Assembly (NCBI GenBank): GCA_003661385.1
Contig: QMWA01000109.1
Span: 1 to 6,032, forward strand
Length of the DNA stretch: 6,032 bases
Direction of reading: 5' to 3'
Source of the DNA: Thermoproteota archaeon
GTDB lineage: Archaea; Korarchaeota; Korarchaeia; B14-G2
Positions 5,067 to 6,032 of the stretch are shown here, piece after piece; the first letter of the stretch is position 1; every line of letters begins with the position of its first letter. The translations under genes were made by a program, and so were the position numbers. The notes below the pieces were generated by a model. The model had not been told where the DNA came from. It ran no database searches and saw only the letters and a program-made list of their open reading frames with translations.

Positions 5067-5990
5067 ATGCAGTCCAAAATCCCCCTATGCAAGCACTGTG
5101 TCAACAGGATAAGGAGCCGAGGCCTGCTTAAGGTAGAAGTTGTTGAGCCACCAGCTTGTTTCATCTGTATGGGGATTATAGACAAGCTATACGAGTTGAT
5201 TGATGAAGCCGTCAGCAAACTGAGCGAAATAGAGTACAGCAAGCTGAAAGCTGCTACCCGCATACCCTCCAACATAGTAGAAAGAGAGGATACGATAAGA
5301 TCTCTATACAACGCTGAAATATACCCCCCGATCAAGATGTACGTGAATAAGCTACTAGATAAGGAGCTATCCACTAGAACAAACTGCTCCATTTCATCTA
5401 CAGCTCCAGACATTATAGTGCTATTTGACTTACCATTGTGGACAGTAACCCTCCAAGTGAACCCGTTATTCATCTCTGGAAGGTATCTAAAGCTTGCCAG
5501 AAACATATCTCAAGCAACATGGTACTGCAAAAGATGTAAAGGTGAGGGCTGCAGCAGATGCAACTGGACAGGATACACTTACCCCTACTCAATTGAAATG
5601 CTAATATCACAGCCGATACTCGAGCTAACTGGCGGCATAAGGGCAGTATTCCATGCCAGCGGCCGCGAGGACGTCGATGCCCTAACCCTAGGAGCAGGCC
5701 GTCCATTCATAGTAGAAGTACTGCAGCCAAGGAGAAGGAGGATAAACCTAAGAGAGCTAGAAGCCGAAATAAACAAGAGAGCTGAAGGACTAGTAGAGGT
5801 TAGAAACCTCTCCTTTGCTCTGTCAAGCTCAGTAAGGCTCATGAAGCAGGCTGAAGCTAAAGCACCCAAAACATACAGGGTGATAGTCCGGTCTGAAGAC
5901 AAGCCGCTAACAGAAGAAGATGTGAGAAGAGCTGAAGCAGAGCTATCTGATAAGCTCTGCTTCAGCTCTTCTCACATCTTCTTCTGTTAG
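5067..5990 (+). CDS. pus10: tRNA pseudouridine synthase Pus10, 3' end lost at fold-back
   Basis: Archaeal Pus10 makes pseudouridine 54 and often 55 in the tRNA T loop. The N-terminal part has two Cys pairs, C8/C11 and C31/C34, then a helical/THUMP-like region (about 35-150), and a further cysteine group C154/C157/C162/C165. The catalytic domain starts near 170 and contains GREDVDALTLGAGRPF (199-214), where D202 is the expected catalytic aspartate. Arg-rich RRRR (222-225) and later strands follow. The frame ends at TAG 5990, but from about 5953 the DNA is the reverse complement of earlier coding sequence, so the last 11 or so residues (LCFSSSHIFFC) are false. Genuine sequence ends near residue 295, leaving off a C-terminal part that archaeal homologues have (roughly 100 residues by memory of the family). 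ATG 5067 is one base after the SRP54 stop, without a strong ribosome binding site. Confidence 0.9.
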   Translation: MQSKIPLCKHCVNRIRSRGLLKVEVVEPPACFICMGIIDKLYELIDEAVSKLSEIEYSKLKAATRIPSNIVEREDTIRSLYNAEIYPPIKMYVNKLLDKELSTRTNCSISSTAPDIIVLFDLPLWTVTLQVNPLFISGRYLKLARNISQATWYCKRCKGEGCSRCNWTGYTYPYSIEMLISQPILELTGGIRAVFHASGREDVDALTLGAGRPFIVEVLQPRRRRINLRELEAEINKRAEGLVEVRNLSFALSSSVRLMKQAEAKAPKTYRVIVRSEDKPLTEEDVRRAEAELSDKLCFSSSHIFFC

Positions 5991-6032
5991 CGGCTTGTCT
6001 TCAGACCGGACTATCACCCTGTATGTTTTGGG
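5865..6032. repeat. Perfect inverted repeat at the window end, probable fold-back artefact
   Basis: Bases 5953-6032 are the exact reverse complement of 5865-5944, 80 of 80 positions, around an 8-base spacer (ATCTGATA, 5945-5952). The left arm is ordinary pus10 coding sequence; the right arm codes for nothing sensible. The arms meet the spacer at AGCT (5941-5944 and 5953-5956), which is its own reverse complement and could have let a 3' end snap back and prime copying of the same strand. The repeat runs to the last base of the window, so its full length is unknown. Confidence 0.97.

Follow-up and report, generated by a model that had tools for sequence, protein, structure and literature searches.

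Interrupted palindromes in Illumina forked-adapter libraries originate when single-stranded DNA forms hairpins whose 3′ ends are filled in (Star et al. 2014, PMC3946424). Among the chimeras formed by multiple displacement amplification (MDA), 85% are inverted, and most are primed at a complementarity of 2-21 nt (Lasken and Stockwell 2007, PMC1855051). Chimeric inverted-repeat reads are also found after sonication in human hybrid-capture libraries, in which they appear as false variants (PMC10908179). The window analyzed here, a stretch of 6032 bp that is the entire contig C109 of an archaeal draft genome (1.74 Mb in 206 contigs, 91% complete and 1.9% contaminated), has a right end that shares features with all three. 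Like the palindromes of Star et al. (PMC3946424), it bears a mirror of its 5′ part at the 3′ end and turns at a short natural inverted match, with a genuine inner part and an apparently artificial outer 3′ part; however, those palindromes were seen in reads of historic or ancient DNA, whereas this one is an assembled contig end with 80-nt arms. It resembles the inverted MDA chimeras (PMC1855051) in the closeness of the two segments and in a joint within the range of 2-21 complementary bases at which those are primed, but they are products of phi29 amplification, whereas the C109 event is single among 267 contig ends. The sonication chimeras (PMC10908179) likewise arise at short inverted repeats, through extension during end repair, but differ in that they come from human hybrid-capture libraries and were recognized as false variants.

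The features at the right end of the window are as follows.

pus10 open reading frame: 5067..5990, plus strand; authentic as far as about 5954, beyond which it encodes false residues up to a false stop codon, TAG at 5988-5990.
Left arm: 5865..5944, plus strand; genuine pus10 coding sequence and template of the fold-back, aligning in frame with the pus10 of contig C54 and with other homologues.
Loop ATCTGATA: 5945..5952, plus strand; genuine pus10 sequence of 8 nt, which reads ATCTAATA in the sister gene of C54.
Probable site at which the snapped-back 3′ end annealed: 5953..5956, plus strand; AGCT, self-complementary and, by its sequence, able to pair with the AGCT at 5941-5944.
Right arm: 5953..6032, minus strand; artificial mirror of the left arm that runs to the contig end, almost certainly non-native at that place.

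The preliminary description had reported a perfect 80-base palindrome with an 8-base spacer and an AGCT at the joint, lying possibly at a contig end, and each of these points proved exact. The two arms are 100% reverse-complementary over 80/80 nt around the loop, which differs from its own reverse complement TATCAGAT, and the turn has the form AGCT-N8-AGCT. Base 6032 is the final base of the contig, so that the right arm is terminal.

The pus10 open reading frame matches Pus10_THUMP_arc and positions 1-144 of 232 in Pus10_C in Pfam, and its tail consists of 11 non-homologous residues (LCFSSSHIFFC), followed by the stop codon inside the mirrored arm. Around the turn, GTAGAGCTATCTAATAAGATC of C54 is aligned with GCAGAGCTATCTGATAAGCTC of the window; the identity is unbroken to 5954 (AAG), and the next base is C for A. 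The TC at 5956-5957 matches C54 by chance; from 5953 onwards, the window repeats in reverse complement what precedes. Homology to C54 and to the other homologues ends at 5954-5957, which indicates that the left arm and the loop are native, whereas the right arm is not. Past the turn, the C54 gene follows the normal Pus10 C-terminus where C109 turns back, and all 12 aligned homologues, C54 included, have 83-88 further residues beyond the breakpoint. The part missing from C109 (about 83-88 residues) includes a conserved block around GLYIKELISGDDGRT. The last 80 bases are almost certainly not genome sequence, and pus10 has almost certainly been wrongly cut short in C109 by the mirrored arm. These results bear out what had been suggested earlier about the gene, namely that it is truncated, that it has received a false stop and 11 or so false residues, and that the true sequence ends between 5952 and 5956, here placed at about 5954 by C54 and the archaeal homologues.

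The open reading frames of the window form an archaeal gene cluster that comprises a 322-aa ORF and, by Pfam assignment, rpo3 with a 4Fe-4S domain, rpl18e (a match just below the Pfam cut-off), rpl13, rps9, aIF5A, srp54 and pus10. The order srp54, pus10, rpl21e, rpo4/F and DUF655 is kept together in 15 of the 19 related loci; C54 begins within pus10, and rpl21e, rpo4/F and DUF655 follow there. Its bases 2-568, compared with window 5640-5957, hold a second pus10, represented by its 3′ half, from the same draft genome, on the other side of the conserved cluster. The two contigs overlap over 318 bp at 79% identity; a nucleotide identity of about 77-79% is too low for C54 to be the lost continuation of the C109 pus10. 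A scan of the genome contigs found only one distant homologue. C54 apparently belongs to a sister population, as judged from sequence, and serves well as a model of the native pus10. With a sister pus10 in the same bin, the bin looks composite.

Elsewhere in the window, the 322-aa ORF (58-1026), which lies upstream of rpo3, is open throughout and has no Pfam match. The product of rpo3 (974-1819) is Rpo3, RNA polymerase subunit D, with a 4Fe-4S ferredoxin-like insert that has two cysteine motifs. At 1929-2026, ARAGORN calls a tRNA-Pro(AGG), whose anticodon would be odd in an archaeon, and makes the same call when introns are allowed. Inspection by eye makes a class II tRNA look more likely, namely a tRNA-Leu(GAG) with a 12-nt intron; its stem would be CAGGG/CCCTG, and its 19-nt loop would include the GAG.

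The palindrome is far beyond chance. Perfect inverted repeats with a loop of up to about 60 nt were surveyed in 140 of the 206 contigs, C1-C140 (1,359,604 bases); the contig ends covered were both ends of C14-C140 and the left ends of C1-C13. Within these 140 contigs, only twelve perfect close inverted repeats of at least 13 bp occur besides that of C109, the longest of them 16 bp, and no palindrome similar to that of C109 was found. Among the 267 contig ends, only that of C109 has a terminal arm longer than 12 nt; the second-longest arm, of 12 nt, belongs to a perfect 24-bp palindrome in C80, and the rest are of 9 nt or less. The C80 palindrome, CCGCTGTAGCAGCTGCTACAGCGG, occupies bases 1-24 at the left end of that contig, which may be a break of the de Bruijn graph at a palindromic edge, given that 24 equals k+1 at k = 23.

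Exact overlaps of 123 bp in 13 pairs of contig ends point to a short-read de Bruijn graph assembly, probably with a final k of 123. Many other contig ends (for example, C103/C104, C104/C37, C1/C16 and C127/C130) overlap over 200-500 bp with an identity of 88-99%, which indicates fragmentation of the assembly by strain variation.

Taken together, an exact reverse complement around a short loop, a short inverted match at the turn, and a native inner part joined to an outer 3′ arm that does not belong there make us very nearly certain, from the bases themselves, that the end of C109 would be a fold-back (snap-back) chimera, produced during library preparation or, less likely, whole-genome amplification. 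The preliminary description had offered MDA snap-back priming or an assembly join as the origin. The fold-back stands, whereas a pure assembler join, in which the graph, with no chimeric read involved, turned onto its own reverse complement, is very improbable. Such a join would suit the position of the palindrome at a contig end of a de Bruijn graph assembly, and the C80 end likewise starts with a perfect palindrome, at which odd-k graphs can break. However, a graph self-join can form only where the native sequence holds an inverted match of k bases or more, with k at least 21. At the turn of C109 this match does not exceed 4 nt (AGCT), and it shrinks to 2 nt if the native sequence is that of C54, by which at least the AG of the second AGCT is native. 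Nor does the 80-base arm reflect the assembly k, as it is unequal to the overlap of 123. With a native match far below any assembly k-mer, and a loop unlike its own reverse complement, the junction k-mers must have come from reads; these reads must have existed, which places the fold-back in the tube rather than in the assembler. Very few would have sufficed. In a 168-bp hairpin fragment read as 2x125 or 2x150, every (k+1)-mer occurs at least twofold at k = 21-27, because the arms share their k-mers and both mates span the loop, so that one read pair would be able to clear a count threshold of 2.

Even less credence is due to a genuine structure, whether a recent inverted duplication or natural long hairpin within the archaeal pus10, or a covalently closed hairpin terminus. 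The exactness of the arms is what a very recent duplication would leave, but the repeat runs out at the contig end, with no sequence after it, would destroy a conserved gene that continues in every aligned homologue, and has no other long inverted repeat beside it in the 140 contigs; moreover, the breakpoint shows just the short inverted match expected from snap-back priming. An unusually stable native hairpin was also considered as the cause and ruled out, as the single-strand fold of 5865-5956 is of unexceptional stability (z -0.58). That the local sequence offers no strong hairpin site speaks to some degree against the fold-back as well, though priming over 4 bp requires no stable hairpin; so does the rarity of the event, which leaves no series of like cases for comparison.

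For the fold-back chimera, the following course may be proposed. A single pus10 strand ending near 5956 would fold back on itself, and its 3′ AGCT would presumably anneal to the AGCT at 5941-5944, leaving an 8-base loop between the paired motifs. A polymerase could then extend the folded 3′ end with the strand's own 5′ part as template and generate the 80-base mirror arm, after which the hairpin product would be ligated, sequenced and assembled. If the true continuation was too low in coverage to compete, the contig would end in the chimera. Probably one or a few molecules lie behind it; reading a single 168-bp hairpin fragment from its two ends would have sufficed. As just one such end occurs among the 267, which gives no sign of abundant chimeras, library preparation is a likelier origin than MDA; MDA is a possible source, but not a required one.

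The palindrome is almost certainly an artefact of a known kind and holds no biology. Its consequences are a matter of data hygiene only: the terminal 80 bases should be trimmed, and sequence after about 5954 disregarded. A perfect palindrome at the end of a draft-genome contig should not, without reads, be taken to imply a telomere hairpin or a cruciform. The pus10 model of C109 should be marked as a partial gene, and not be taken to show that this tRNA pseudouridine synthase is truncated or has become a pseudogene.
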